Shown piece after piece: positions 1-17,417 of a stretch of DNA of 41,129 nt (its first letter is position 1; every line of letters begins with the position of its first letter). The notes beneath the pieces are model-generated. The model was not told where the DNA came from. It saw nothing but the letters and a program-made list of their open reading frames with translations, and searched no databases. The position numbers and the translations under genes were made by a program. The stretch comes from an uncultured Oscillospiraceae bacterium (GTDB taxonomy: Bacteria; Bacillota; Clostridia; Oscillospirales; Oscillospiraceae): contig CANQKA010000011.1 of NCBI GenBank assembly GCA_947624395.1, positions 1-41,129 of the forward strand, given 5' to 3'.

Positions 1-141
1 TAATGGATAGAAGGTCAGAGCATGACCGACTTTATATTGTCACCGTATAGCGGCAGCAATGAGCAGAAATGCTTTTTTCCGCATTGATTTGATTCATTAA
101 CACATCCGGTACAGCTACCGGCTGGAATACTATAAAGAGCA

Positions 142-165
142 CGGCGGCACCAGATGGTGCCGCCG
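142..165 (-). terminator. Hairpin, likely terminator of the relaxase operon
   Basis: Two 10-base arms (142-151 and 156-165) pair perfectly around an AGAT loop. On the minus strand the stem is followed by a modest T-rich stretch (TGCTCTTTAT). It lies just beyond the stop of the 60-residue minus-strand gene, the expected place for a terminator. The T tract is weak, so termination efficiency is uncertain. Confidence 0.5.
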
Positions 166-174
166 CTGGCGTTG

Positions 175-357
175 TTACGCCTTGGTGTCTTGGAGGTGTC
201 TTTCCTTCTCCCGCTGGGCTTTCCATGCCGCGAACTCCCGCTGACCTTCCTCGCTCTCGTAAAACGCGAGAATGTCCGGCAGGAAGCAACGGGCGAGCTT
301 TTCGATCTCGTACTGCGGGATGTTGGTGTCGTTTATGAGCTTCTTCCTACGACCCAA
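175..357 (-). CDS. Small conserved mobile-element protein, 60 aa, function unknown
   Basis: A 60-residue charged protein with no membrane segment and no Cys cluster. Its middle reads as a short helical domain (EIEKLARCFLPDILAF) followed by a highly charged tail. The start is TTG at 357, chosen because a good AGGAGG (about 363-370) sits at proper distance and no ATG fits. I believe similar short proteins are common at the distal end of relaxase operons in Firmicutes mobilizable elements; this is from memory, not a search. It is the last gene of the minus-strand mob cluster. No function can be assigned. Confidence 0.6.
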   Translation of the reverse strand: MGRRKKLINDTNIPQYEIEKLARCFLPDILAFYESEEGQREFAAWKAQREKERHLQDTKA

Positions 358-511
358 TTCTTACCTCCTATGTGACGCTATGCTAATAGTGACGGATGAA
401 CAGTGTCATGCTGTGATTCCTCCTTTCTGCCATGGTCTAAAGCCTGGATCTGCGGTCAGTGGTGTAAGGATACCACCCCTCCGGGTTTTACGCCCGGAAA
501 GCCTTGCAAAT

Positions 512-949
512 TCAGGGGCTTTGCTGGTCTATCGTTCTACTATTCGCCCTGCATCGTTTGGCGTACTCCGCCTTTTGCCGACGCTGGGCTATGACCCTGC
601 AATCGTTACAATATTTCGCCCGGTTGGAGCCGGGGAGAAACGCTTTGCCGCAAATCGCGCACCGCTTCATGGTGTCCTTGCCGAATATCTCCATTTCAAG
701 AGCTTGTCCTTCTATGTCTCTCAGCAACACCCAGCGGAAGACCTTGCAGCAGACGGAATAAGAGAGTGTCTGCGGGCACGGGACTTCCTCGCCATCGTCC
801 AGGTAAAGGCAATTGCCATTGTCACAGGCACTGCACAGCTTCCGAATGAGCGAGACGGTCCGCTGCCGCTGCCTGCCGTTCATGCGCGGGAGAGACCCGT
901 CCGGCTGTCTCTCAATCGGCGGGAGCAGTTCAAGATGGAATAAGCTCAT
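512..949 (-). CDS. Cysteine-rich VLP-family protein
   Basis: A 145-residue protein with two Cys clusters. The first half has CSACDNGNC followed by a CP..SVCC run; the second half has a zinc-ribbon-like C-x2-C...C-x2-C motif (CAICGKAF...YCNDC) and ends in a basic segment (RRQKAEYAKRCR). This pattern fits the Cys_rich_VLP family, small proteins usually encoded next to relaxases in Firmicutes elements; their role is unknown. The start at 949 overlaps the relaxase end by 20 bases, indicating translational coupling. An alternative start, Met at 883 (MNGRQRQR), would give 123 residues and fits the family's usual beginning about as well. Confidence 0.75.
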   Translation of the reverse strand: MSLFHLELLPPIERQPDGSLPRMNGRQRQRTVSLIRKLCSACDNGNCLYLDDGEEVPCPQTLSYSVCCKVFRWVLLRDIEGQALEMEIFGKDTMKRCAICGKAFLPGSNRAKYCNDCRVIAQRRQKAEYAKRCRANSRTIDQQSP

Positions 950-2468
950 GGCGCTTCTCTTTCGTGTGGCCCAGTATGCTCTCCAGATTGTTCTTCACAG
1001 TCTCCAGTTCCTTCACCCTGCGCTGCTTTTCCCTGTAGTCTTTGTACAGCGTGTTCTTCTCCGATGTAAGCTGTTGGATCTCCGCTTGCAGGGCCTTGGT
1101 GCTGGGCAGCTTGGTGATCCCGTGGTCCTTGAAATACTTGGCGGCGGCGGTAGACAGCATGAACTCCCGCTCGTGTGCCTGGGCGTATTCAGCCCTGGCC
1201 TTGGCTGTTTTCAGTGCCTTGTATTCTTGCCGGACATCCTTCGTTTCCCAATAAGTCAAAAGTTGCTTTTGCAGTTCTTTCTTCCCGGTGAGGACAGTTT
1301 CAATGGATTTGAGTTTTTCCCGGCTCTCTTGCAATTCGCTCTGGGCGGCGGCCAGTAGTTCGTTCAACTCGTCCATAGAAGCAAAGCCGTAATCGGTATA
1401 TGCGTTCAAGGTGTTGACCATCTGCTGGAGATTGAATCTCTGCGCCCACTTTTCATAGCCGATGCCCTTGCCCTCGGCGCGCTTGGCTTCGATGTCCACA
1501 AGCCGCTGGACATTTCCCGCCTCCCGGAGCTTGTCCAGAACGCTGTGACGGGCGGGCTGCTTCAGCGCGTTTTGTGCCAATGCCTCATGCACCGCCGCTA
1601 GGTCGTAAGCATCGCCCAGCTTTCGTGCCGTGATGGGTTTTGCTCTGTCCGGCGAGAGATAGGACAGTCGCCCTCGGTTTTCCTTGACCATGACACCCTC
1701 ACGGAGAAGCAGATCGGCAAACTCATCAAATGTGGTAGCTGTCTCCAACGCCTTTCGGATGGTCCGGCGCAGCTTTTCTTTGTCCGTTTCAAACTTGGTG
1801 GGCTTGTCGGACTTATCCAGTTTGGCCTGTCCTTTTTTCTGTGCCCAATACTCCCGGTCATTGATTCGATCCTCGCTGCCATTGAGCAAGTCGGTCTGGT
1901 ATAGACCTTCCCGGTGGCACATCTCCATGACCTCGGCCTTGAAGTAATCCATTGCCGCGTTGGTGCAGCGGTGCTTCATCCCGGCTTTCACGTCGGCGGG
2001 GCGGTCCATATATGGAAGCATAGGGACATCCTCGATCCGCAGACTGTTGATGACGATATGTACATGGATATTTCCGGTGTGATTGTGCCCGTCCGGGTGA
2101 GTGCAGACCAGCGCTTGGTGGCCGGGGAAATGCTCGCGGCAAAACTGCTCTCCAAGCTCCTGCGCCCGGTCCACGGTCAGGCCGTTGTCTGCACCGTCCC
2201 GTGGGTCAAAGCTGATGATGTAGTGATGGCTTTTCACGTCGTCCCGGCTTTGATTTTTGCCATATTGCAGATTCGCTCTCATACAGGCGACAGCAAAATC
2301 CTGGCCGTCGCAGTTGAGCGCAGCGAGGCGGTAATCCTGGCGCGGAATGAGCCGTCCGTTGTCGTCCAGAATTGGCTTCATGGTGAACTCGTCGTGCTCG
2401 AAAAGCAGATATTTCTCCGCGTCGCTGTACCGGGCGTTTTTAGAGCTTATGTGTTTGAATGTTGCCAA
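930..2468 (-). CDS. Relaxase / mobilization nuclease (MOB-P type)
   Basis: A 512-residue conjugative relaxase that would nick oriT and lead the strand into a recipient. The N-terminal third carries the relaxase fold: an early Tyr-containing segment (NARYSDAEKYLLF) for the likely nicking Tyr, a GKNQSRDDVKSHHYIISF strand, and the metal-binding three-His motif HNHTGNIHVHIVINS near residue 140. The C-terminal half is charged and coiled-coil-like (about residues 360-505). No primase or helicase domain is visible and no coupling protein is in the window, so the element is mobilizable rather than self-transmissible on what is seen. It overlaps mobC upstream by 29 bases and the Cys-rich gene downstream by 20, so the three form one operon. 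Confidence 0.9.
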   Translation of the reverse strand: MATFKHISSKNARYSDAEKYLLFEHDEFTMKPILDDNGRLIPRQDYRLAALNCDGQDFAVACMRANLQYGKNQSRDDVKSHHYIISFDPRDGADNGLTVDRAQELGEQFCREHFPGHQALVCTHPDGHNHTGNIHVHIVINSLRIEDVPMLPYMDRPADVKAGMKHRCTNAAMDYFKAEVMEMCHREGLYQTDLLNGSEDRINDREYWAQKKGQAKLDKSDKPTKFETDKEKLRRTIRKALETATTFDEFADLLLREGVMVKENRGRLSYLSPDRAKPITARKLGDAYDLAAVHEALAQNALKQPARHSVLDKLREAGNVQRLVDIEAKRAEGKGIGYEKWAQRFNLQQMVNTLNAYTDYGFASMDELNELLAAAQSELQESREKLKSIETVLTGKKELQKQLLTYWETKDVRQEYKALKTAKARAEYAQAHEREFMLSTAAAKYFKDHGITKLPSTKALQAEIQQLTSEKNTLYKDYREKQRRVKELETVKNNLESILGHTKEKRHELIPS

Positions 2469-2838
2469 CGATCGCCGCCACCTTTTCCAAGACTTCGTAT
2501 TTCAACATAGTAAGGTCAACGACTGCATTACGGACCTCCTTTTCCAAGTCAGCATAAGGTGTCCCGTATTCATTCAGGTGCCGTGCGATCTGATTGAGAT
2601 TGCCGCCGATCTTTCCATACTGCGCGATGAGGTCATCCAGCTTTTTCAGCAGTTCATCATTCACCGCCGTGATCACGATAGTGGGCTTGAGCGTCACGCC
2701 GGTGATGGCCTTGCGGATATACGCCGCTTTGCTGACGCCGCATAGAGCTGCGACTTCTTCAAAGGCGGCATATTCCTCTTTGGTCAGCCGTGTTTTCACG
2801 GTCATGCTCCGATGGGGCGTGTTGTACTTTTTCGGCAT
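2440..2838 (-). CDS. mobC: MobC-like plasmid mobilization relaxosome protein
   Basis: A 132-residue accessory protein for oriT nicking. The N-terminal part resembles a ribbon-helix-helix DNA-binding segment (KTRLTKEEYAAFEEVAALCGVSKAAYIRKA) and the C-terminal part has the MobC signature GGNLNQIARHLNEYG. ATG at 2838 (MPKKYNTPHR) is preferred over an upstream ATG at 2886 because an AAAGGAG lies 12 bases upstream and the longer version adds an unlikely hydrophobic leader. It is the first gene of the mob operon, immediately downstream of the candidate oriT, and overlaps the relaxase start. It probably binds that region and recruits the relaxase. Confidence 0.88.
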   Translation of the reverse strand: MPKKYNTPHRSMTVKTRLTKEEYAAFEEVAALCGVSKAAYIRKAITGVTLKPTIVITAVNDELLKKLDDLIAQYGKIGGNLNQIARHLNEYGTPYADLEKEVRNAVVDLTMLKYEVLEKVAAIVGNIQTHKL

Positions 2839-2879
2839 GGGTGAAATGATCTCCTTTGGGAACAAGCGAATTTGAAAAA

Positions 2880-3130
2880 TGAGCAAACAGGCCCCTGTGG
2901 GGCCCCCAGCGCAAACCAGCGGAGCGTTTGCGATGGGGAGAGGAGGAGCAGCGAAACGGATGAGCTTTGCCGCTTACGGCGAAGCGAGGGATGTGGAGCT
3001 TGCGACGACGACATGCAGGGTTTGGGGAAGGCACTCCCCAACAAGATTCCGTGGGGCAAAAATGAGCTTGGAGCGAATTTTGGGCCCATGGTAGAATCTT
3101 GCTCTGACGACTCACACCCCGGCAGGGGCA
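2880..3130. other. Candidate oriT region (cluster of inverted repeats upstream of mobC)
   Basis: The gap between mobC and the DUF6061-like gene (2839-3521) has no credible gene. Its mobC-proximal part is dense in short inverted repeats: GGCCCC/GGGGCC (2890-2904), CGCAAAC/GTTTGCG (2910-2932), TTGGGGA/TCCCCAA (3022-3041) with an extra TGGGG at 3052-3056, and a CCCC/GGGG pair near 3117-3128. Relaxase operons usually sit beside their oriT, so this is the best candidate. The rest of the gap (3130-3521) is AT-rich and includes an 18-base perfect palindrome at 3295-3312. No nic site can be named from sequence alone. Confidence 0.4.
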
Positions 3131-3521
3131 TTCCCTCGCGCAAAACCATTTTAGTTTTTTCTCTCTGCGAAATTTGTCGAAAAGCGTCGAGGAAATAAGA
3201 AAAACTGACACAGTTTGACGAGACTTGCAAACGCCGACGATAGATGCTTCTCTACTATCTATTGGAACTGAAATGCCGTTTTGAACGAAAACTTTTCAAA
3301 AAATTTTTTGAAGATGCTTCCGCAGCTCATAAAACAAACGTGCGGACAACCCGGAAACGCAGATTTCCCTAAGGAAAATGCCGCTCACACGAAAAGTTTT
3401 TGGCCGACCAAATTAAAATATCAAAGACAGGGGGGTGCAAGCATTTATCCCTAAAACGCTCCACGCAAAAAGCAGCAGAGGCAGGAAGAATCCTGCCTCT
3501 GCAAGTGTGAATTTTGGATCG

Positions 3522-3767
3522 TTAGTCCAGCGGTTCGTACCGTGTGACCGCTTTCAGATACCGGGCTGGGTCGCCGTTCAGGATAAGCTCGGCGTAGCTG
3601 AGCGGGTCGTTGTAGATGAGATAGTCCAACTCAGACCGCTGAAACAGGTTATCCGCGACTTCACGCTCCACGGCGGTGCAGTCGATGGCGATCATGCCGC
3701 CGTCTGCGTACCGCAGTTCCACGCAGCCCGTGTCCATGTTGAACTCACAGGAGATCAGCTTTTTCAT
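3522..3767 (-). CDS. DUF6061-like small protein
   Basis: An 81-residue acidic protein with alternating strands and helices (MKKLISCEFNMDTGCVELRY start; NDPLSYAELILNGDP near residues 53-67). It matches my memory of the DUF6061 group, small proteins carried by Clostridia mobile elements and having no known function. It has a purine-rich ribosome site (AAAGGGG) upstream of the ATG at 3767. It lies downstream of the broken SLOG gene, and the undamaged SLOG frame would have run about 20 bases into it, so the pair were probably translationally coupled. Confidence 0.7.
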   Translation of the reverse strand: MKKLISCEFNMDTGCVELRYADGGMIAIDCTAVEREVADNLFQRSELDYLIYNDPLSYAELILNGDPARYLKAVTRYEPLD

Positions 3768-4110
3768 TTTTCGGCACCCCTTTCAAAGTAAAAACTGTTA
3801 GCGGCTTCCCATATCTTTTGCAGCGGTCAATGGTGTACTTCGTTCCTCTGGACGCGCCATCCCAGATGGCAACGATGTGGTCAGCTTAGTCAATTATTTG
3901 GTCATTTCGTTTCAACGGTGCAACCCTGCCGTACCTTTCGTAATCTGGACGGAACTCTGTCAATTTGATTTTGGCTGACAACGCATACTGTCTGGCACAG
4001 GTGTCGATGCCACGCGCTCCACCGGACACGATCTCTGTCACGCCCTCCGGCAGATAGTCATTTAGGTCATCTACTGTCAGTCCTCTTGAGCCAATGATCG
4101 CCACCTTCAT
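3745..4110 (-). pseudogene. SLOG (DprA/YAcAr-like nucleotide-binding) gene, interrupted by an in-frame stop
   Basis: From ATG 4110 the frame encodes 74 residues beginning MKVAIIGSRGLT with the SLOG nucleotide-binding loop SGGARGIDTCA, then meets TAA at 3888-3886. Beyond that stop the same frame continues (ADHIVAIWDGASRGTKYTI, then RCKRYGKP) for 46 more codons to a TGA at 3747-3745. That continuation is the expected second half of the small SLOG/DUF2493-type protein. A single change of a Tyr codon to TAA explains it. SLOG proteins bind nucleotide-derived ligands, and some act in defence or element maintenance. A -35/-10 promoter at 4180-4208 points into it. Confidence 0.75.
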
Positions 4111-4179
4111 CTGCGCTCATCTCCAAGCTCAACTTCTTAAAATCGGGATTGACCAGTATCGCGGTCAATATCCAACGCC

Positions 4180-4208
4180 AATATACCATAAACTAGCCTC
4201 AGTTGCAA
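4180..4208 (-). promoter_or_regulatory. Minus-strand promoter for the SLOG/DUF6061 genes
   Basis: Read on the minus strand, TTGCAA (4203-4208) and TATATT (4180-4185) are separated by exactly 17 bases, a good housekeeping promoter. It lies in the divergent gap between the SLOG gene and the plus-strand XRE gene. It is bracketed by the inverted repeat GACCAGTAT (4151-4159) / ATACTGGTC (4212-4220), which suggests regulation by the neighbouring XRE protein. Confidence 0.6.
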
Positions 4209-4238
4209 CCAATACTGGTCAGAACTGAGGTAAGAGTT

Positions 4239-4481
4239 ATGGAGCAAAAGATCAGACGTGACCGTTGCATGGGGGACAATCTGCGGCGGCTTCGCAAAGA
4301 CAGCGGCTACTCGCAAGAGAAACTCTGCGCGGAACTCCAGCGCCGGGGGTGCGACATTGGCCGGACCACATACGAAAAGTATGAACGCGGCGAGCTGAAT
4401 ATCCGGGCAAGCGTCATCATAGAGCTGCGGAAAATCTACCACTGCGACTATGATGAATTTTTCTGGGGACTGGATGAGTGA
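4239..4481 (+). CDS. XRE-family helix-turn-helix regulator
   Basis: An 80-residue single-domain Cro/C1-type regulator. The helix-turn-helix occupies about residues 10-65 (NLRRLRKDSGYSQEKLCAEL, then TTYEKYERGELN). ATG 4239 is used rather than a start at 4203 because GAGG (4227-4230) sits 8 bases upstream and the HTH begins soon after. It faces the SLOG gene divergently and is followed after 61 bases by the reverse transcriptase gene, so it may regulate either side. An 8-base inverted repeat includes its ribosome site. It could be the RT module's own regulator or simply an element maintenance repressor. Confidence 0.85.
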   Translation: MEQKIRRDRCMGDNLRRLRKDSGYSQEKLCAELQRRGCDIGRTTYEKYERGELNIRASVIIELRKIYHCDYDEFFWGLDE

Positions 4482-4542
4482 AGAATGCGGTTATTATTGG
4501 CGCCCGCCCCTCTTGTCAGAATAGAAAGGAAGGCAGATCGCA

Positions 4543-6066
4543 GTGGAAATAGACAACAGTCAGTTTTGCAGAACAGTAACATTATCCGGCTTTTACTCTG
4601 AGTATCTCCCCCCTTGCTTCTCTCTGGATGACAAGGTTTTATATTGTCCGCCAGTTAGTGACTGTGACTTGATCCCGCCTTATAACTTTACCATGAGCAG
4701 ATTTAACGGGAATGATGCAAGGCGAACGCTTTTTATTCCTGAGATCGGGGCATATCTTGCCGCGCAAAATTTTATGGCGGAGAACGGAATAATAAGCGAA
4801 CTTATAGATTTTTCACAGTCTGACAAACATTCCTTTTCGCATATACTTGGCGAAGATAAAACAATTGTCCGCCACGAACAGGTCTACGACCAAAATCCGG
4901 CTTTGGATGAGGAACCGTCTTCCTATGCGTCCGTTTATATGCAAAATATAGGCGAGAAACTTATTCGTTCTGCTGGCGCAAAGAAAATTCTGAAGCTTGA
5001 TATTTCCAATTGCTATTCCAGCGTCTATATGCACATGATGCCCGCTATTTTGCTGGGCGTGGAACAGGCGGAGGCAGAGTATAAAAAATATGTGCGCCAC
5101 GTCGACGATCCGAGCATATCGCCAATCTATCGAAAATACAGAAAGCTGGATGAGGCGATCAGAAGGCAAAATCTGAATCGAACGAACGGATTGCTACCCG
5201 GCATCTTATCTTCCCGCTTGATTGCGGAAGCAATTCTTGCGCGCGTTGACCAGGAACTGGAAGAACGTGGGCTTCACTTCGTCCGGTACGTTGATGACTA
5301 TGAGGTGTTTCTTTATGATGATAATGAGAAAGAGGCCGTGAGCATCTTCTCTCAGGTGATCAATAGATATGGGTTTTCTTTGAACTACGAAAAAATGATT
5401 ATAGTGGATTTTCCGTTTTATGTCGTGGAAAACTTCGAGAGCATCCTGGGGGACAAGCTGAAGTATGTTTTACCCGTTGATGATATGATCGATGTTTTCA
5501 ACACATTCTTCAAGTTGGAACAGAACGGGACAAAAGGCGCTATACGCTATCTTGTGAAACGCTTTGAACTGCAACCGATGCAAACAGATATGCCAAAATT
5601 ATATACTTCTTATCTGTTGACGATTATGGCAAATAATGAGCGTTCCTTATCCAAGTGCTGTTCAATACTTGTCGCGCAAAAAAACACTTATCCCCTCACG
5701 CAAGCGGAAAAAGACAGAATTCAGAAAATGCTGGAGAAACACCTCAAAGCTGGCCATGATCTGGAAGTGGCATGGCTGTTGTTCCTTCTAACCGAAACCG
5801 GCAGCATGAAAAAGGGCGATCCGATCATTCAGGATGTTTTAACACAGGGCCAGGAACTAAGTCATGTCATTTTGCTCAGGCGAGACCTTTTGACAGAGGA
5901 AGAGATCTCTGCTGTGAAAGAACACGCGACTTCGTGGTTGCTCCTATACGAGTTGTACGCAGATGATATTATTACAGAAGGGGATTTTGTAAGCAGATTA
6001 AATTTGAACAAGAACTTGCCCATGTACCAGAAATTCAAACATCATAAGATCCACTTTGTCTCTTAA
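4543..6066 (+). CDS. Reverse transcriptase of the UG/Abi (defence-associated) type
   Basis: A 507-residue RNA-directed DNA polymerase-like protein. Visible RT motifs: motif A LKLDISNCYSSVYMH with catalytic Asp153; a motif B-like LPGILSSRLIAEAIL (about 218-232); motif C RYVDDYEVF with the YVDD box at 249-252; and a motif D-like GFSLNYEKM with Lys284. There is no group II intron maturase/HNH domain, no retron signature and no DGR-type SQ motif. About 200 C-terminal residues are predicted helical, like the alpha-repeat regions of Abi-type RTs. Start is GTG 4543 with AAAGGAAGG upstream. The gene is visibly more AT-rich than its neighbours, marking it as recently acquired cargo. Known relatives (AbiA/AbiK, DRT systems) stop phage infection, so anti-phage defence is inferred; the exact class is not assignable by eye. 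Confidence 0.85.
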   Translation: MEIDNSQFCRTVTLSGFYSEYLPPCFSLDDKVLYCPPVSDCDLIPPYNFTMSRFNGNDARRTLFIPEIGAYLAAQNFMAENGIISELIDFSQSDKHSFSHILGEDKTIVRHEQVYDQNPALDEEPSSYASVYMQNIGEKLIRSAGAKKILKLDISNCYSSVYMHMMPAILLGVEQAEAEYKKYVRHVDDPSISPIYRKYRKLDEAIRRQNLNRTNGLLPGILSSRLIAEAILARVDQELEERGLHFVRYVDDYEVFLYDDNEKEAVSIFSQVINRYGFSLNYEKMIIVDFPFYVVENFESILGDKLKYVLPVDDMIDVFNTFFKLEQNGTKGAIRYLVKRFELQPMQTDMPKLYTSYLLTIMANNERSLSKCCSILVAQKNTYPLTQAEKDRIQKMLEKHLKAGHDLEVAWLLFLLTETGSMKKGDPIIQDVLTQGQELSHVILLRRDLLTEEEISAVKEHATSWLLLYELYADDIITEGDFVSRLNLNKNLPMYQKFKHHKIHFVS

Positions 6067-6203
6067 AAACAAGTCTACACCAAATTGAGTTCCAAATCTA
6101 AAAGAACCTTTTAAAACCCCAGTTTCGAAATGATTATTCCGGCCATTTTAAGAGGCAATTATACTTCGTTGTGTTGCATTATAGAGATTATGCAAACTAG
6201 ATG

Positions 6204-6232
6204 TTGATTTATATGCCGTGATATGCTATGAT
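6204..6232 (+). promoter_or_regulatory. Promoter of the XRE-BRO-recombinase operon
   Basis: TTGATT (6204-6209) and TATGAT (6227-6232) are 17 bases apart, about 30 bases before the XRE start at 6261, with GGGAGGG as ribosome site. The gap 6067-6203 after the RT is AT-rich and shows no further feature. This promoter would drive the regulator, the BRO-like protein and the recombinase as one unit. Confidence 0.6.
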
Positions 6233-6260
6233 ATAGAAAACCAACAAGGGAGGGTCCATC

Positions 6261-6617
6261 ATGCAGATCATGGCAGATAGGCTGCGGGCGCTGCGGCTGT
6301 CTATCAACGTGTCCCAAAATAAGCTGGCCCCGATCCTGGGCCTGCGGCAGTCCGGCGTTAACCGCTATGAGAATAACCAGTGTGAGCCATCCGCCAAGGT
6401 GCTGCTCCGCTATGCGGATTATTTTGACGTGTCGCTGGACTATCTTTATGGCCGCACTGACGATCCCAAAGGAAAGGTATATTCCAACGAGCCGGACCTG
6501 GGAAAGCTGCACCCGGAGATGAACGAGTTCATTGAGATGTGCTTTGACCCCAAATCTCCCATGAACAAGCGGCTGAAAAAGACGCTGGTGCAGATGCTGG
6601 AGGAGGAAACGAAATGA
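6261..6617 (+). CDS. XRE-family transcriptional regulator
   Basis: A 118-residue regulator with an N-terminal Cro/C1 helix-turn-helix (about residues 5-60: RLRALRLSINVSQNKLAPIL, GVNRYENNQCEPS, and the closing DYFDVSLDYLYGRTD typical of HTH_3 proteins). A charged C-terminal helix of about 45 residues follows, possibly for dimerization. It is the first gene of a three-gene unit and its stop overlaps the next start by four bases (ATGA). By analogy with other integrative elements it probably represses its own promoter and therefore recombinase expression. Confidence 0.88.
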   Translation: MQIMADRLRALRLSINVSQNKLAPILGLRQSGVNRYENNQCEPSAKVLLRYADYFDVSLDYLYGRTDDPKGKVYSNEPDLGKLHPEMNEFIEMCFDPKSPMNKRLKKTLVQMLEEETK

Positions 6618-7486
6618 AGGAGGACAAGCTTCAGCTTTTCGAGGACCAGCCTATCCGAACGGCATGGGACGAGGAAAACGAGGAATGGTACTTCTCCGTT
6701 GTGGATGTAGTCCGTGTCCTTACTAACCAGCCGGACACCCGCCACGCAGCGAAATATTGGAGCGTCCTGAAAACGCGCATGAAAAAAGAGGGCAGTCAGT
6801 TGCCTACACTTTGTAGTCAACTGAGAATGCTCTCCGCTGATGGCAAACGATATAAAACTGACGTGGCAGACACAGCCGGACTTCTCCGCATCATCCAGTC
6901 CATTCCCTCTCCCAAGGCGGAGCCATTCAAGATGTGGCTGGCCCAAGTGGGCAAGGAGAGAATCGAAGAGACGATAGACCCTGAGCTTTCTATCGACCGG
7001 GCGCTGGGTACATACGCGCGGCTGGGCTACTCGCCGGAGTGGATCAACCAGCGCATCCGCACCATTCAAGCCCGGAAAGAGCTAACAGATGCATGGAAAG
7101 AGCACGGCGTAGAGGAGGGGCGGGAATATGCCATCCTTACCGACGAAGTTACCCGCGCGTGGTCCGGTATGAGCACAAGACAGTATAAGCGGCTGAAGGG
7201 CCTGAAAAAGCAGAGTCTGCGAGATAACATGAGTACGCTGGAATTGGCTCTGAACATGCTGGCCGAGGCCACGACAACGGAGTTGACCAAGACGGAAAAT
7301 CCGCAGGGTCTGGCCGAAAACATTGTCGTCGCTCAAGCGGGTGGCGAAGTTGCCGGAGGCGCCCGGCGCAGCATCGAGGCCCGCACTGGCCGCCCGGTCA
7401 TCACCAGCGAGAATGCCGCGCAGCTCAATGCTGTGGTGACAAATCTGATCGAAGGTGTGGCAGAAGATGAGGAGGAGACGAAATGA
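6614..7486 (+). CDS. BRO-family / phage antirepressor-like protein
   Basis: A 290-residue protein with an N-terminal BRO-type domain (about residues 12-115: the WYFSVVDVVRVLTN segment, then ARKYWS-type and KMWLAQVGKERIEE segments). A long helical C-terminal part has a KRLKGLKKQSLRDNMS stretch and an acidic end. BRO-N domains occur in phage antirepressors and in DinD-like DNA-damage proteins. It lies between an XRE repressor and the recombinase, with 4-base overlaps on both sides, so an antirepressor that relieves the XRE protein and links induction to excision is a reasonable inference. It could also be a DinD-like effector. Confidence 0.75.
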   Translation: MKEDKLQLFEDQPIRTAWDEENEEWYFSVVDVVRVLTNQPDTRHAAKYWSVLKTRMKKEGSQLPTLCSQLRMLSADGKRYKTDVADTAGLLRIIQSIPSPKAEPFKMWLAQVGKERIEETIDPELSIDRALGTYARLGYSPEWINQRIRTIQARKELTDAWKEHGVEEGREYAILTDEVTRAWSGMSTRQYKRLKGLKKQSLRDNMSTLELALNMLAEATTTELTKTENPQGLAENIVVAQAGGEVAGGARRSIEARTGRPVITSENAAQLNAVVTNLIEGVAEDEEETK

Positions 7487-9072
7487 CTGCTGTGATTTAT
7501 GCCCGGTATTCCTCGGACAGCCAGCGGGAGGAGAGCATAGAGGGGCAAATTCGTGAGTGCACCGCCTTTGCAGAGAAAAACGGCATCACTGTTCTGCGTC
7601 ACTACATAGACCGGGCGTTCTCCGCAAAAACGGATAACCGCCCGGAATTTCAGGCCATGATTAAGGACAGCGGCAAAAAGCTGTTTGATATGATCATCGT
7701 CTGGAAACTGGACCGCTTTGCCAGAAACCGCTATGACAGCGCCCGGTATAAGGCTGCGCTCAAGAAGAACGGCGTCAAGGTGGTGTCGGCCACCGAGGTC
7801 ATTTCCGAGGGCGCTGAGGGCATTATTCTGGAATCGGTCCTTGAAGGCTACGCCGAGTATTATTCCGCCGACTTGTCCGAGAAGGTCATCCGGGGTATGA
7901 CGGACAACGCCCTCAAGTGCAAATTCAACGGCGGCACTTTGCCCACGGGATACGTCATCGACAGCGAGCAGCACTTCCAAATCGACCCGCTGACGGCACC
8001 CTATGTGCTGGAGGCGTTCAAGAAATACGATGCCGGGTACACCATGACGCAGATATGCAGCTGGCTGAATGAAAAAGGCGTGAAGAACACCCGCGGACAG
8101 GCGTTCTCTTACAACAGCATCCAGCATCTGTTGAACAATCGTCGGTATATGGGAGAGTTCCGTTATCGTGATACGGTCATCCCCGATGGCATCCCGGCCA
8201 TCGTACCCAAAGATTTGTTTGAGAGAGTTCAGGAAAAGCTGGCGAAGAACAAAAAAGCTCCAGCCCGACACAAGGCTGAAGACGACTATCTGTTGACTAC
8301 AAAACTGTTCTGCGGCTACTGCGGCAGCTATATGTGCGGGGAGAGCGGCACCAGCCACACGGGAAAAGTACACCACTATTACAAGTGTGCCACGGTGAAG
8401 AAGAAACGTGGGGACTGCCACAAGAAGCCTGTCAACAAGCAATTCATCGAGGATTTCATCGTTCATGAGACGATGAAGGAGATACGGGACGACAAGGTAA
8501 TCGCGGCCATCGTCTCCACGGTAATGGACCTGCAGGAACAAGAGAACACCCAGCTCCCCTTGTACGAGCAGCAGCTAAAAGAGGCGGAGACCGGCATCAA
8601 TAACCTGCTCAACGCCATCCAGCAAGGAATACTTACGCCATCCACCAAGAGCCGCCTGGAGGAACTGGAGGCTGCGAAAGAGGACCTGGAGATCAGGATC
8701 GCCAACGAGAAGCTGGCAAAACCGAAGCTGACGGCGGAGTTCGTTACCATGTGGCTGGAGCGGTTCCGCAAGCTGGATATGACGAAGAAGGAACACCGGC
8801 TTCAGCTCATAGACACATTCGTCAATTCGATCTATCTATTCGACGACAAGCTGACGCTCCACATCAACTATAAAGACGGGACAAAGACCGTCACCTTTGA
8901 CGAGATGAAAGCGGCCCTGGACGTACAGGCCGCGGGTTCGGATTTGGATTGCCGTGGTGCACCAAACGAAAAGGACACGCGAGGGCGTGTCCTTTTCGTT
9001 TGGTCCCGCTATTTTTATGTGTCAAGATGCAATTCAGGTCGTGATTTTGTCGATTCAGGACAGAAATATTGA
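7483..9072 (+). CDS. Large serine recombinase (integrase/excisionase) of the element
   Basis: A 529-residue site-specific recombinase that would integrate and excise the element. The resolvase domain (about 1-150) has the catalytic Ser in YARYSSDSQ (Ser10 or 11) and the VWKLDRFARNRYD motif. A Recombinase domain (about 160-270) and a zinc ribbon follow (CGYCG ... YYKCATVKKKRGDC, about residues 280-310), then a coiled coil (about 350-410). Start overlaps the BRO-like stop by 4 bases. The last ~30 codons run through a perfect 44-base hairpin and into what may be flanking DNA, so the C-terminal tail may be partly host-encoded. Recombinases of this type usually lie next to one attachment site. Confidence 0.93.
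   Translation: MTAVIYARYSSDSQREESIEGQIRECTAFAEKNGITVLRHYIDRAFSAKTDNRPEFQAMIKDSGKKLFDMIIVWKLDRFARNRYDSARYKAALKKNGVKVVSATEVISEGAEGIILESVLEGYAEYYSADLSEKVIRGMTDNALKCKFNGGTLPTGYVIDSEQHFQIDPLTAPYVLEAFKKYDAGYTMTQICSWLNEKGVKNTRGQAFSYNSIQHLLNNRRYMGEFRYRDTVIPDGIPAIVPKDLFERVQEKLAKNKKAPARHKAEDDYLLTTKLFCGYCGSYMCGESGTSHTGKVHHYYKCATVKKKRGDCHKKPVNKQFIEDFIVHETMKEIRDDKVIAAIVSTVMDLQEQENTQLPLYEQQLKEAETGINNLLNAIQQGILTPSTKSRLEELEAAKEDLEIRIANEKLAKPKLTAEFVTMWLERFRKLDMTKKEHRLQLIDTFVNSIYLFDDKLTLHINYKDGTKTVTFDEMKAALDVQAAGSDLDCRGAPNEKDTRGRVLFVWSRYFYVSRCNSGRDFVDSGQKY
8961..9004. terminator. Perfect 20-bp hairpin inside the recombinase 3' end
   Basis: Arms 8961-8980 and 8985-9004 are exact reverse complements around a GAGG loop. 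The arms contain AAAAGG/CCTTTT, so there is a T-rich stretch within the stem but no clear U tract after it. The hairpin is inside the recombinase reading frame (residues GAPNEKDTRGRVLFV). It may be a bidirectional terminator insulating the element from the host gene downstream, or part of the element end. Confidence 0.55.
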
Positions 9073-9098
9073 CTTTTGGCCCGGTGGTTTGCTATGTT
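9069..9098 (+). promoter_or_regulatory. Promoter of the first giant surface-protein gene
   Basis: TTGACT (9069-9074) and TATGTT (9093-9098) are 18 bases apart, and the start codon with AGGAGG follows about 55 bases later. The promoter begins within the last codons of the recombinase, so it is at or just outside the element boundary. Confidence 0.45.
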
Positions 9099-9154
9099 GC
9101 TTCCAGAATTGGTGGTATTTTACCCTTTCAACCTGGCGCAAGGAGGAAACTGGA

Positions 9155-9505
9155 ATGAGTATGGCAAAGCGGATCATCGCGGTGCTTCTGGCGATCGTGC
9201 TGGCCTTTGGCACGCTGGCGACGACGGCGTTCGCAGCGGAGGAGCCGGAGGTCACGACCGAACCGGAAGCGACGGTCGAGCCGGAGGTCACGGTCGAACC
9301 CGAACCCACGGCGGAGCCCGAGCCCACGGCGGAACCCGAGGTCACGGCGGAGCCCGAGGTCACGGCGGAACCCGAGGCGACGGAGGAACCGGCGGCCACG
9401 GAGGAGCCTGAGGCCACGGCGGAGCCGGAGGAGGCCGCGGACAAGACTGTGGACTACTACGACCCCGGCACCGGGACGACGAAGAGGTCAGCACCCACGT
9501 TCTGA
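9155..9505 (+). CDS. N-terminal fragment of giant secreted beta-helix protein (signal peptide and Glu-Pro-Thr stalk)
   Basis: 117 codons from ATG 9155, with AGGAGG (9141-9146) 8 bases upstream. Residues 1-29 are a signal peptide (KRIIAVLLAIVLAFG..., cleavage near AFA-AEE). Then come about 65 residues of Glu-Pro-x-x-Thr repeats encoded by 15-18 base units, and the module header DYYDPGTGTTK. The frame then leaves homology and stops. Restoring one A in the AAG of 9481-9483 would give GTTKEVSTHVL and join the frame that continues to 10014. As read here, this piece would be secreted as a short acidic peptide. Confidence 0.7.
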   Translation: MSMAKRIIAVLLAIVLAFGTLATTAFAAEEPEVTTEPEATVEPEVTVEPEPTAEPEPTAEPEVTAEPEVTAEPEATEEPAATEEPEATAEPEEAADKTVDYYDPGTGTTKRSAPTF

Positions 9506-9540
9506 CGGGCAACGACGGGACCTGGACCGCCGGCTGGTAC

Positions 9541-10014
9541 GTGGTGCAGGGCGCGGTGACTATTGAACATGCGGATGTGGCGGAGGACGCCGAGGTGAAT
9601 CTTATCCTGCCCATGGGTTCGGGCCTGACGGTCAGCACCGGCATTCGTCTCTATCCCAACTCGACCCTGACCATCTGGGGCAGCGAGGCGGACTATCACA
9701 ACGACGGCGAGCTGAACGTCCTCGGCGCCGATTATCGTTGCGCGGGCATTGGACGCGGGTGGAATGACCGCAGCTACTGGATGACGTTGGTCGTCAACGG
9801 CGGCCGTATCCGGTCTCAGGGCGGCGCAGGCGCCGCGGGCATCGGCAGCGGGTACGTCGGCGCGGGCATGGGCGTGATCATCAACGCCGGCCTCGTCGTC
9901 GGCACCGGCAGCACGGACGCCGCAGGCATCGGCGGCGGGAGTGGCTCCGGCGGCCAGGTGACCATCAACGGCGGCACGGTCGTCGGCTACGGCCGGGGGG
10001 GACTATGGCGTTAA
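9541..10014 (+). CDS. Middle fragment of the giant beta-helix protein (other frame)
   Basis: This frame is homologous to the beta-helix modules downstream: GSGLTVSTGIRLYPNSTLTIWG, then AGIGSGYVGAGMG and VTINGGTVVGYGRG, the same order as in later modules. Homology begins before its first ATG, at about 9484, where TGNDGTWTAGWYV continues the header that starts in the preceding frame. It ends at 10014 only because a run of seven G (9995-10001) shifts the reading. With six G it reads GRGDYGVNGVWDGLVT and joins the 2301-codon frame exactly. It is therefore part of one gene, not an independent one. Confidence 0.65.
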   Translation: MVQGAVTIEHADVAEDAEVNLILPMGSGLTVSTGIRLYPNSTLTIWGSEADYHNDGELNVLGADYRCAGIGRGWNDRSYWMTLVVNGGRIRSQGGAGAAGIGSGYVGAGMGVIINAGLVVGTGSTDAAGIGGGSGSGGQVTINGGTVVGYGRGGLWR

Positions 10015-10018
10015 CGGC

Positions 10019-13000
10019 GTGTGGGACGGCTTGGTGACCATCAACGGCGGCTCGGTGAAGGGCACTGTGCGCGACCCCCGTGACGCGAACGGGAACACGC
10101 TCTATTTGGCGCAGGTACACAACCCCAACGGCCTGCCCGTCACCGTGAACGGCCGGCGCTGGAACATCAACAACAGCTATGACGCGCTCCGCGAGGAGAC
10201 GACGGACACGGACCTTTATATGTATCTGCCCGAGACGGAACCCATCGCGGACGTGGTGGTGGGCAACGGGCCGATCCAGCGGTATGTGCTGGACAAGGAG
10301 CAGGGCCGGTTCGTGAACATGGGCGTCTACTACCCCGGCCAGGTGGGCGTTGGCACGGCGACGTATTATGACCCCGCGGCCGGGACGAAGAAGCAGGCGG
10401 AGAACGTCATCACCGTGAGGGACGGCCTGACCACCTGGGGCTATGGATGGTACAAGGTGGAGGGCTATGTAACGCTGGACCATGTGGACGTGACGGGCGA
10501 CGTGAACCTGATCCTGTCCGCCAGGTCGAGCCTGACGGTCACGAACAGCGTCCGGGTCGCGGACGAGCGGAGCCTGACCATCTGGGGCAGCGAGGAAAAC
10601 TTCTACAGCGACGGTATGCTGACGGTCCGAGGTTCAGGCCAGGAAAGTGACTATGCGGCGGGCATCGGCAGCGCCGGGGGTGGCGGCAACAGCCAGATAA
10701 CGATCCACGGCGGCAATATCAACGCCCGGGGCGGGAATGGAGCCGCGGGCATCGGTTCCGGCGGCTCCGGCTCCAGCGCCACGGTGAACATCACCGGCGG
10801 CGTTATCCGCGCCACCGGCGGCTGGGGCGGCGCGGGCATCGGCGCCGGGGACTCCGGCTCCAGCGCCACGGTGAACATCAGCGGCGGCGTGGTCAACGCC
10901 AACGGCAGTTACCAAAGCGCGGGCATCGGCGGCGGTTCCAACAGCAACTCCAACGCCACGGTGAACATCAACGGCGGCGTGGTCAACGCCACCGGCGGCA
11001 CATACGGCGCGGGCATTGGCGTCGGGAATGAAAATTCCAGGGCCTCGGTGACCATCAACGGCGGTACCGTGACGGCCAGCGGCGGCGTTGCCGCGGGCAA
11101 CAGAGGCTCGGTGACCATCACCGGCGGCTCCATAAAAACCGACGGCGGCGTCAGCCCCCAGCCCACGAACAGCAGGGGCACCTGGGTATTTCCGCTGCAG
11201 GTCGATAACCCCAGCGGCGGGACCGTCACCGTGAACGGCACGGCCTGGAATGTGAATAACCACGCCGCGGCGGGCGACGACGACACGAACCTTTATATGT
11301 ATCTGCCCGATTCCAGCCCCACGGTGGACGTGGTCGTGAGCGGCGGCCCGGTGCAGCGCTATACGCTGGACCGGGATGCGGGCCGGTATGAGCCGGCCAC
11401 GGACAACATCTACTACGACCCGGCCACCGGGACCATGCAGTCGTGCGAGGCCACGGCGGTGGCGGCGGACACGACGGACTGGACGGGCGGCTGGTACATA
11501 GCCAGGGACACCCAGAGCATAGGAACTGTTACCGTCAGCGGCGATGTAAATCTGGTTTTGGTCAACAGCAGGACCCTGACGGTGGAGGGTATCCAGATAC
11601 AAAACGGCGGCAGCCTAACCATCTGGGGCCAGAGCGCGGACTATACGCAGGACGGCGCGCTGGTGGCCCAGAGCGGCGTCGTCTCGGGTGACAGCGGCGC
11701 GGTGACCGTCCGGGGCGGTAAGATAACGTCCGCCGGCAGCGAGGGCGGCGCGGCCATCGGCGCGACCACGATCACCATCGACAGAGGCGTGGTGGAGGCC
11801 ACCAGCGGCGGCTCGGCCATCGTGGGCACCACGGTGACGATCAACGACGGCTCGGTGACGGCCACCGCCGGCACGGGCTCGGCCATCGTGGGCGGCGAAG
11901 TGACGGTCAACAACGGCACGGTGACGGCCACCAGCGGCGACAGCGCGGCCATCGGCGCGGCCACGATCGCCGTCAACAACGGCACGGTGACGGCCAACGG
12001 CGGCGTCGCCGCCGGCAGCGGCGGCACGGTGACCATCGCCAGCGGCACGGTGACGGCCCAGGGCGATATCAAAGCGGACAATGGCGCGATCACCATCAAC
12101 AGTGGCACGGTAACGGCCAGCGGTGCCATCACCGGCGGCACGGTGACCGTCGCGGGCGGCTCGGTGACGGCCGACGGGGCCATCACCGGCAGCGGCGCGG
12201 TGACCATCACGAGCGGCACGGTGGCAGCCGGCGGGGCCATCACGGGCAGCGAGGTAACTATCAATAGCGGCACGGTAACGGCCAGCGGGGCCATCACGGG
12301 CAGCGCGGTGACCGTCAACAACGGCACGGTGACGGCCAACGGCGGCATCGCCGCCGGCAGTGGCGGCGCGGTGACCATCGCCAACGGCACGGTAACGGCC
12401 CAGGGCGATATCAAAGCGGACAATGGCACGGTGACCGTCAATAACGGTACGGTAACGGCCAGCGGGGCCATCACCGGCGGCACGGTGACCATCGCGGGCG
12501 GCACGGTGAAGCCTCAGGGCGATATCAAAGCGGACAATGGCCCGGTGACCATCAACGGCGGTGTGGTGGTGGCCGGCGGGGCTATCACCGGCAGCAGCGC
12601 GGTGACCGTCAGCGGCGGCACGGTGACGGCCGGCGGGGCCATCAGCGGCGGCACGGTGACCATCACCGGCGGCTCGGTGAAGGGCGGCATCACGCCCCAG
12701 CCGGTGAACGCCGAGGGTCAGCCGCTGTACCTGCTGCAGCTGGCCAACCCCAACGGCGAAGGGGTCATCATAAACGGCGCGGCCTGGAACATCAACAACC
12801 ACGGGGCGACGGGCGAGGGCGACACGGACCTCTATGCGTATATCGCCCTGTCGGAGGTAGTGGCGAAGGTCGGAGGCGGAACGCCCATCCGGTACATACT
12901 GAACAAGGATACGGGCCTGTACGAGACGGCCTCGGCCGTGAACTACTATGACCCGGCGAGCGGGCAGGTCCAGACACGCGACTCAGCGGAGCCGCTCGTG

Positions 13001-16000
13001 AATGGCACGACGAGCTGGAGCCCGGACAACGGTACGGGCGGCTGGTATATAGCGCTCGGCACTGTGACCACGAGGCAGGTCACCGTCAGCGGCGATGTGA
13101 ACCTGGTCCTGGCCAACGGCGCGGCACTGACGGTGAGCAACGGCATCCAAGTCCAGGAGGGCTCGCACCTGACCATATGGGGCCAGAACGCGGACTATAC
13201 AAAGGACGGCGCTCTGACAGCCCCGGACGCGTCCAGTGATTACCCGGGCATCGGCGGCGCGTCCAGCTGGATCACCATCAACGGCGGCGTGGTGACGGCC
13301 GCCGGCGGCTTTAATGCCGCGGGCATCGGCACCGGGCCTTCCACCAGCGCAACGGTGGAGATCAACGGCGGCCTGGTGCGGGCCGAGGGCGGATGGCGCG
13401 AAGATAACGCGGGCATTGGCGGCGGACGAGATTCCACCTCCACGGTGACCATCAACGGCGGCACGGTGCAGGCCAACGGCTACGAATATGCCGCGGGCAT
13501 CGGCGGCGGGCGTGGCTCCACCGCGACCGTGACCATCAACGGCGGGTTCGTGACGGCCAACGGCCGTGAAGGCGCCGCAGGCATCGGCGGCGGCTCTTAT
13601 CATTCCACTGCCTATGTGACCATCACCGGCGGCACCGTGACGGCGACGACCACCGGCTACTATGACACGGGTCCCGGTATCGGCTCCGGGCTTTGGACCT
13701 CTGCCGCCAGTGTGACCATCACCGGCGGGTCGGTGAAGGGCAGCGTGAACCCCCAGCCGGTGGACGCCAACGGGGACCCGGCCTGGCTGGTGACCGTCCC
13801 TAACTCCGACGGTCTGGCCGTGACCATCGGCGATAAAAGCTGGCAGCCCCGGAACCACGCGGCTTTGGACAACGACACGAGCCTGTACGCCTACGTGTCC
13901 AAGGCCCGGGCGGACGAGAACGGCGTGATCCGGGTCAGGATCGACGGCGGGGAGAGGCTGTTCGTCATCCATAACGACGCGCTCCTGGAGCTGACCGAAT
14001 TTGACCAGGACAGAGCGAGCTGGACGTGGAACGCCGATGGGTCCGCCACCCTGACCCTGCCCATGCGGGACGGGAGCGAGCCTGTGACGCTGAACGGAAA
14101 GATGACCCTGGTGAGCGAGATACCGCCCAAGTGTACGGAGGAAGGCAGCCGGACCTACAAGGCCACCGCGACGATAAACGGCAAGGAGTTCTCCGACACC
14201 AGACCCATCCCGGTGGCGCCCCTGGGCCACGCTTGGCGCGGCTCGGCAACCTGGTCGGAGGACTATTCCCAGGCCACGGTGACCTTCACCTGCGCCCATG
14301 ACGAGTCCCACCAGCAGTCGGTGACAGTGGATACCACGTCGGAAATGACCATGAAGCCCACCTGCGGCTCTATTGGCTACATGACCTGCACGGCGGACGC
14401 CTCGGAAAAGGCCGCGGAGCTGGGCTGCGAGACCGGTGTGTTCACCGCCAGGAAGTTCCTCCCGACGACGGCGCACCGCTGGGACCCGGAGGGCACGGTC
14501 GTTCCCCTGGAACCCGGCGTGTCGGGGGATGATGTCACCCTGACCATTTTCTGCCGTAACGAGCACCGGCACCGCAAGATAATATACCCCACGTTGGAGA
14601 AGATAAGCGCCACGCCCGCCACCTGCTCGTCCGAGGGCAGCGAGACGTACCGCATGAGCTACGAGGTGGACGGCAAGAGCTATGTCCTGGCCGACACCGA
14701 GACCTATACCCTGCCCAAACTGCCCCACACCTGGACCGATTGGAAACAGGTGGGCAATAACCTGGAACGCGAGTGCACCGTGTGTCATGAGAAGGAACGC
14801 TCGGACCACGCCCATGCTTTCGTCCTCCCCAACGAGGCGGATTGGAACGTGGTGAACGGCCAGGTCATGAGCGTGTCGGTGCCTGTGAAATGCTCGGCGT
14901 GCGACCTGAGCGCCACGCTGACCTACTCCGGCGACCAGATCAAGTCCAATACCGTTACGAAAGCCACCTGCACCACGGATGGCTGGACGGCTTGGTCCGT
15001 GACCGTGGAGTTGGACGGCAAGACGAGAACCTACACGAAGCAGACGATGGACCCGGCGGAGGGTCATGTCTGGATGGTAGACGAGGACGATATTGTCTGG
15101 GCGGAGGACTACAGCGCCGCCACGTTCACCTTCCGGTGCCTGACATGTGAAGAAACAGCCGTGTCCCGCGTCGCCAGCACCGTTCTGGACAGCACACCCG
15201 CCACCTGCGAGCAGAAGGGCTATGCCGTCTACAGCGCCTCTACGGAGTACGGCAGCACCACGGTGTCGTCTTCCGTGAGCGCGGAGCTGCCCGCCCTGGG
15301 CCACGATTGGGACGCGGAGGGCAACCAGTACCCCCTGCAGGCCGGCATTGACGGCGATTTCGTCACCCTGACCATCACCTGCAAGAACGACACCGCCCAC
15401 ACCCGGAAGGTGTACGCCGAGCTGGGTCTGGTGAAGAATGAACCGGCCACCTGTACGGAGAGCGGCGTCACCGGGTACAAGATGGAGTATGAGCTGGACG
15501 GTCAGACCTACGCCATCGGCGAGGAAGAGGACTACGAGATACCGGCTCTGGGCCACCGGTACACCACGGCCCACGTGTGCGCGGTGTGCGGCGCGAAGGA
15601 GCCCACCGTGTCGCCCAACGTGACCTACACCTGGGACCTCCCGACGGCGGACGACACGAGCCGGGTGCAGTGGACCCAGCCGGCCACCGGCGCCGCACCT
15701 TACGTGACGGTTACAGCCGTCCGCAGAGGCAGCGACGGCAGCCGCTTTGAGCAGCCGGTGACGGTGATAGCCGCCGCCACGGCCAGCACGGTGGCGTGCG
15801 ACAAGGCGGGTACCACGTCCTATTCCGCCAAAGTTGAGATTGGCGGCAAGAGCGCCACCTACACCAAAGACTACGCGGACGTGGCCCCCGCGGGACATCA
15901 GTGGAGCGAGCCGGAGGTCAAGTGGTCGGATGACCTGACCAGTGCCACCCTCACGGTGACCTGCGCCCGGGACGAGACGCATACGCAGACCCTGACGGCC

Positions 16001-17309: not shown

Positions 17310-17386
17310 TTGATTTTCCCAATTTAAAGAGTTATAATCACAGTGTTTGGATAAATTTATCTAAATAAATTCCAGTTTCTGGAATT
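17310..17386 (+). promoter_or_regulatory. Promoter and palindromes ahead of the second giant surface-protein gene
   Basis: TTGATT (17310-17315) and the perfect TATAAT (17333-17338) are 17 bases apart. Downstream of the likely start site are GATAAATTTATC (17350-17361, a perfect 12-base palindrome) and AATTCCAG-TTT-CTGGAATT (17368-17386). Both could be operators or 5' UTR hairpins. The gene starts at 17418 behind GGGAAAGGAG. Confidence 0.7.
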
Positions 17387-17417
17387 GTTGCAGCCATTTA
17401 CGGGAAAGGAGACACCC

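Follow-up and report, generated by a model that had tools for sequence, protein, structure and literature searches.

Class 1 enzymes of the UG/Abi reverse transcriptases (RTs), as far as they have been studied, synthesise DNA without a nucleic-acid template, and some of them are primed by a tyrosine (excerpts of PMC9508834, PMC11077055, PMC13174585 and PMC13213688). In AbiK the priming residue is Tyr44 (excerpt of PMC9508834), and the random single-stranded DNA made by DRT4 turns toxic once a phage protein protects it (excerpt of PMC13213688). DRT3b, also of class 1, writes poly(CA), again without a nucleic-acid template and probably primed by Y666 (excerpt of PMC13174585), a residue taken here to be C-terminal.

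The RT gene described here lies in the window, i.e. the whole analysed stretch of 41,129 nucleotides from an uncultured Oscillospiraceae bacterium, among the genes of a predicted mobilizable element. The features of the element and of the RT protein are the following.

158..3785: left arm of the element, with relaxase, an ORF presumed to be MobC-like, and DUF6061
930-2468, minus strand: relaxase, left arm
2440-2886, minus strand: ORF that we take to be MobC-like, left arm
3522-3767, minus strand: DUF6061, left arm
3786..4477: an ORF fragment, presumably SLOG-like, and most of the XRE ORF; common to the sister element L063 and not RT-specific
4478..6187, plus strand: exchangeable segment, comprising the RT gene and its flanks; other DNA in L063
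4543..6066, plus strand: RT gene; its product of 507 aa is a reverse transcriptase-like polymerase of class 1 UG/Abi, group UG31
Residues about 130-300 of the RT protein: RT core
Residues about 300-500 of the RT protein: C-terminal part, aligning to the UG15 helical part
6187..8964, plus strand: right arm, with XRE repressor, BRO-N gene and large serine recombinase
6261-6617, plus strand: XRE repressor, right arm
6614..7486, plus strand: BRO-N gene product, matched with 436 bits by PDC-S13 of PADLOC, a candidate defence model
7483-9072, plus strand: large serine recombinase, its last codons beyond the end of homology

The RT frame (4543-6066, plus strand) has a GTG start and 507 codons without an internal stop, and is preceded by a purine-rich stretch that could be a ribosome binding site. 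Pfam RVT_1 matched the protein with 39.3 bits against a cut-off of 29.6. The RT motifs are represented by D153 and by YVDD at 249-252, and D153, D251 and D252 are invariant in all 13 aligned sequences of the UG31 clade described below; judged from the alignment, the catalytic residues are intact, in line with what had been read from the sequence alone. In four of the five RT gene pairs computed dN/dS was 0.16-0.20, the pair of window and L026 being saturated. The GC content of the RT gene is 43.2%, compared to 53.8% and 54.2% in the element arms and 63.2% in the chromosomal part of the window, which agrees with the AT-richness previously claimed for the gene.

The best PADLOC model for the window protein was RT_UG31, with 424.9 bits over residues 12-506, twice the score of the next group, UG30 (213.6 bits). 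Drt6 (173.2 bits, and thus not the best model), Drt4 (142.4) and AbiK (101.4) followed. RT_UG31 was also best in all seven clade members covered by the PADLOC scan, i.e. the window protein and six of its 12 relatives, the six relatives scoring 395-462 bits. By the NCBIfam models for Drt4, Drt3b, Drt3a, Drt5, group II RT and retron St85 the window protein scored far below the cut-offs, with 123.8 bits against 450 for Drt4 (NF041749), 34.8 against 300 for the group II intron RT/maturase model, and 22.5 against 235 for the St85 retron RT model. Profile alignment of residues 145-475 gave E 1.3e-26 to solved UG15 chains and E 7.5e-18 to AbiK, and the protein appears to consist of an RT domain followed by a helical alpha-repeat domain, as class 1 UG/Abi requires.

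The sequence-only reading had described a UG/Abi-type RT lacking maturase and retron signatures, and the model scores given above and the tree described below bear this out. Its further suggestion, that the enzyme is unassigned and may be a new class, was rejected on account of the near full-length RT_UG31 match: the window RT belongs to an already named group and is not new in kind. No experiment on UG31 was found in the literature searched; outside it, the 2022 UG/Abi survey or the DRT4 paper may discuss the group. "UG31" is absent from the main texts of PMC12632851, PMC8934634, PMC13174585 and PMC11077055.

Twelve loci were collected by a pattern scan of genome_contigs with a three-member alignment. 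L023 among them is broken, L026 lies on the same contig as L002, and a further relative, L012, came from a separate genome search with the UG31 model. Thirteen sequences were aligned, namely the window protein, L012 and the 11 loci of the scan that remain without L023; identity to the window protein is 37-52% among the 12 relatives. The 13 UG31 sequences form one clade, with a support of 100/99, in a tree of 33 RTs that covers UG/Abi, group II intron and retron rows. The rows named UG30 (L009, L029, L030), Drt6 (L010) and Drt4 (L011, L075), their names taken from model scans, form a starred set (97/94), which the UG31 clade joins at 86/70. AbiK (L073) lies just outside these groups, and the set that includes it is starred as well (95/91). 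Abi-P2 (L074) is not part of this set but pairs with L004, both having long branches. Both the group II rows (L066 and L067 by model, L005 and L006 by tree position) and the retron rows (L070-L072) are apart from the UG31 clade; L069 is only Drt3a-like, with 124.8 bits, below the cut-off of the Drt3a model. The RT phylogeny thus places the window protein outside the group II intron and retron clades and within UG/Abi relatives, and it is from this tree position that the assignment to class 1 is made. Y162 and H164, which follow the first catalytic Asp, occur in each of the 12 class 1 rows compared and in none of the Drt3a-like, retron and group II rows compared with them.

The RT_UG31 model also matched L004 and L013-L015 (329-352 bits), whose identity to the window protein, over parts of the length, is only 22-24% and which lie outside the 13-member clade. 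One clade of all RT_UG31-labelled sequences was not rejected (p-AU 0.269, or 0.358 without L004). Since these very divergent sequences are also caught, and L013-L015 have FSDD where the window protein has YVDD, two or more groups may share the label.

The clade is rare in the genomes searched. The RT protein found matches at E <= 0.001 in six of 199 related genomes, its own included, of which only G104 was close (52%); the rest of the genus gave no match. At 1e-40 the UG31 model matched four of 394 genomes of the order and five of 391 of the class, in both cases including the own genome; the other matches in the order are UG30, Drt6 and Drt4 examples, and those in the class are L012 and the distant UG31 branch. 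Scans of IMG/VR, both with the single sequence and with an alignment, and of phage records gave no match, a single-sequence scan of genome_contigs gave no result, and plasmid records gave distant RTs only, none covering 80% of the query.

Of the described systems, UG30 has the next best HMM score and is in the neighbouring tree set (86/70), its example L009 being 27% identical to the window protein; DRT6 (UG12), also among the next scores and in the same set, is represented by L010 with 23% identity. DRT4 (UG15) resembles the window protein over the RT and helical parts and is likewise a single gene, but the window protein stays under the NCBIfam Drt4 cut-off. AbiK and Abi-P2 have the RT core and the Y162 and H164 positions in common with UG31; on the other hand, the AbiK loop with the priming Tyr44 is a gap in UG31, and both are on separate branches.

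Because the window RT is placed in class 1 UG/Abi and is similar to UG15 chains over both its RT and helical parts, a mechanism like that of DRT4 and AbiK is the best available model. What we infer for oligomerisation, priming, product, trigger and defence is the following. The UG31 enzyme would form an oligomer, aided by the helical domain, and would polymerise DNA without a nucleic-acid template, primed by the hydroxyl of a tyrosine within the enzyme itself. Phage infection would raise or stabilise this DNA, which in turn would stop the growth of the phage or the cell. Against this model count the lack of the AbiK Tyr44 loop in UG31 and the defined repeat made by the class 1 enzyme DRT3b.

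The leading candidate for the primer would be Y21 in the N-terminal GFFSEYLPP motif, followed by Y495 near the C-terminus. Y21 is found in 13 of 13 clade members, and a tyrosine at this position is absent from the 10 other class 1 rows compared (two of them gaps); one group II row has a Tyr there, at the alignment end and of doubtful meaning. Y495 occurs wherever the C-terminus of a clade member is complete (12 members); most of the remaining class 1 rows examined have it too, the alignment of that end being unsure. Tyrosines 71, 115, 162, 196, 199, 249, 253, 276 and 469 are invariant as well and are possible primers, several of them being widely shared or located in RT motifs. A mechanism of its own within class 1, with Y21 as primer and a product unlike the random DNA of DRT4 and AbiK, seems unlikely for UG31, the more so with Y495 as a further candidate, if worth bearing in mind.

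DRT3b suggests another course, in which the product would be defined and protein-templated, possibly with the help of a second component encoded elsewhere. This agrees with the poly(CA) synthesis by that class 1 enzyme (excerpt of PMC13174585) and with the weak match of the Drt3b PADLOC models to the window protein (77.7 bits). However, the own assembly G000 contains one RVT_1 match, so no second RT was seen in an assembly that is 83% complete, and the ORF tables list no neighbour common to the clade members; we regard a DRT3b-like working as distinctly unlikely.

A single-gene boundary is indicated by the surroundings of the relatives. Neighbours change from locus to locus, and no conserved partner gene was seen for the UG31 RT in the ORF tables, the exceptions to the changing neighbours being the near-twins L022 and L023 and an upstream stretch common to L016 and L021. 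In the broken locus L023 (7992-9509) the UG31 gene is split into two frames in the same setting as L022, where the copy is intact.

This boundary also bears on whether the RT might copy a cis-encoded or host RNA by a class 2 or retron-like working, for which speak the intact RT motifs and the example of DRT2, DRT9 and DRT10. Relative to L063, 65 nt upstream and 121 nt downstream travel with the window RT gene, and shuffled sequences fold at least as well as these two stretches do (z 0.57 and 1.57); Rfam at gathering scores gave no match in window 1-12000. The RT gene of L025 is separated from the neighbouring ORFs by only 14 and 20 nt, and that of L022 has a 13 nt gap upstream. The 100-nt flanks of four gene pairs that are 78-88% identical were also compared, with shuffles (0.52-0.55) for the upstream flank only: L016/L019 and L019/L021 were near shuffle level (0.51-0.59), whereas two of the four pairs, L017/L027 (0.62 and 0.67) and L016/L021 (0.69 and 0.68), were above it, which speaks for RNA copying. 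With the pair flanks mixed and the Rfam and folding searches null, a flanking structured RNA is not supported for the window RT, and taken together with the class 1 place in the tree this makes RNA copying very improbable.

Neighbours were scanned in part at eight of the 11 loci L016-L022 and L024-L027, the loci left out being L018, L020 and L021. In L024 the RT is followed by BREX pglZ and brxL (1101 and 1162 bits) and preceded by an Abi_C protein, and L019 has PDC-S11 (386 bits) and a methyltransferase (157 bits). L025 has an N6-methylase of the Eco57I kind, and beside its RT a serine recombinase 57.5% identical to that of the window. In L022 one neighbour has modest restriction-type matches (<=67 bits) and another no match, and these two ORFs we take to be McrB and McrC. 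L027 has an ATPase of the AriA/OLD type (85 bits, a match of generic nature) and an ORF without match, and L017 has GAP1 and double-GTPase Pfam families, with no PADLOC match for the one scanned. No clear defence neighbours were found in L016 (endonuclease/exonuclease/phosphatase) and L026 (DUF4143 ATPase).

The element around the window RT has a relaxase, a recombinase and definable ends, as would be expected of an integrative mobilizable element. The recombinase ORF crosses the right end, and its closest relatives match to residue about 495-504 of 529; as the DNA homology also stops there (near 8964), the last recombinase codons would derive from the insertion site. Right ends were folded and compared with shuffles in 12 cases (window 8964, L051-L055, L057-L060, L062 and L064), and a hairpin with z -3 or lower was present in 10 of them, the exceptions being L052 (z -0.3) and L062 (z -1.5); T residues often follow the hairpin. 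Such right ends would fit a recombinase that inserts the element at transcription terminators in many places. At the left end, window about 143-164, there is a GC-rich inverted repeat (GGCGGCACC..GGTGCCGCC), which occurs with variations in the seven sister elements printed. An 18-base tandem repeat (9201-9441) adjoins the element, and downstream follow two very large surface-type ORFs, 10019-16924 (2301 aa, beta-helix and fn3 matches) and 17385-22604 (1739 aa, DUF7601 and isopeptide domain).

Of 35 genomes of the genus to which window 1-9300 was compared, 31 had some match. Fifteen regions were chosen from the visible matches, of which 14 were new and were aligned to the window, and six more were added later. 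The match of L063 to the window stops at 4477 and resumes at 6188, other genes lying between. Right homology starts at 6187/6188 in seven of the 14 (L051, L052, L053, L055, L059, L063, L064) and in three of the six later regions (L076, L077, L080), and left homology stops at 3784/3785 in seven of the 14 (L051-L054, L056, L060, L061) and at 4477 in L063. L054 and L060 have a right arm that starts only at 7470/7482, so that their slot includes the XRE/BRO-N position. BRO-N marks a second variable position, as L051-L053 and L055 lack it between XRE and recombinase; DNA homologous to it is present in G030:C9 and G018:C73. The RT gene is thus exchangeable cargo of the element, as had been claimed, with other cargo at matching borders in the sister elements.

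Parts of both arms were found on one contig in seven other elements (L051-L055, L060, L063), and with part of the slot ORFs scanned, four of the seven had a PADLOC match of >=150 bits in the slot, a threshold set after the scores had been seen. These are a type II methyltransferase in L051 (156 bits, beside a helicase-like gene with 102), RmrA and RmrT in L054 (476 and 196), AbiLi and AbiLii in L060 (298 and 69), and HEC-04 in L063 (175). The L053 slot holds a 375-aa ORF without match. A type III restriction-modification pair of L053 (569 and 501 bits; 5441-9671 when turned to the window orientation) lies outside the slot, left of DUF6061 and between the equivalents of 3182 and 3609, so sister elements have more than one cargo position. 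The scanned slot ORFs of L052 and L055 gave no strong defence match; by Pfam they include a NERD nuclease and an HTH in L052 and a RES domain in L055, with 54 bits to "cll". As a control, none of 10 chromosomal genes of the window reached 150 bits (best 101), and three of the 10 had some match at E <= 1e-5, judged to be of transporter type.

An XRE ORF (4203-4481, plus strand, HTH_3 by Pfam) is present 61 bases upstream of the RT gene, as stated earlier, but the role of dedicated RT regulator proposed for it was rejected. In L063 the XRE, which differs from that of the window at seven of 92 residues, stands beside DUF3800 and an ATPase in place of the RT, with the DNA homology stopping within the last XRE codons. 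A related SLOG-XRE pair is found in L065; both loci are from G031, which has no match to the RT protein.

The carriage of the RT by such an element, and the related recombinase adjoining the RT in L025, could also mean that the enzyme serves the element, in its maintenance or in the exclusion of other elements, and not phage defence. This we consider improbable: the other genomes of the genus have no RT match, yet many have sister elements, and clade members also adjoin BREX and other genes. For a defence function we have counted the BREX genes of L024, PDC-S11 of L019 and the slot contents of the sister elements; against the preferred reading as a whole stand the several scanned neighbours that are not clear defence genes and the two of seven sister elements without a strong match, together with the 86/70 join, the position of Abi-P2 outside the set and the two of four pair flanks above shuffle level. 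On balance, the window RT, swappable cargo of an integrative mobilizable element, is probably an anti-phage polymerase of the DRT type that acts as a single gene and belongs to group UG31 of class 1 UG/Abi.

The chemistries by which class 1 DRT enzymes write DNA are unexpected, and many of these enzymes are functionally uncharacterised (excerpt of PMC13174585). The intact UG31 gene offers a 13-member alignment, candidate primer residues and a clear single-gene boundary, and the slot in which it lies swaps cargo, often of defence type, between genomes of one genus and could be mined for further systems.
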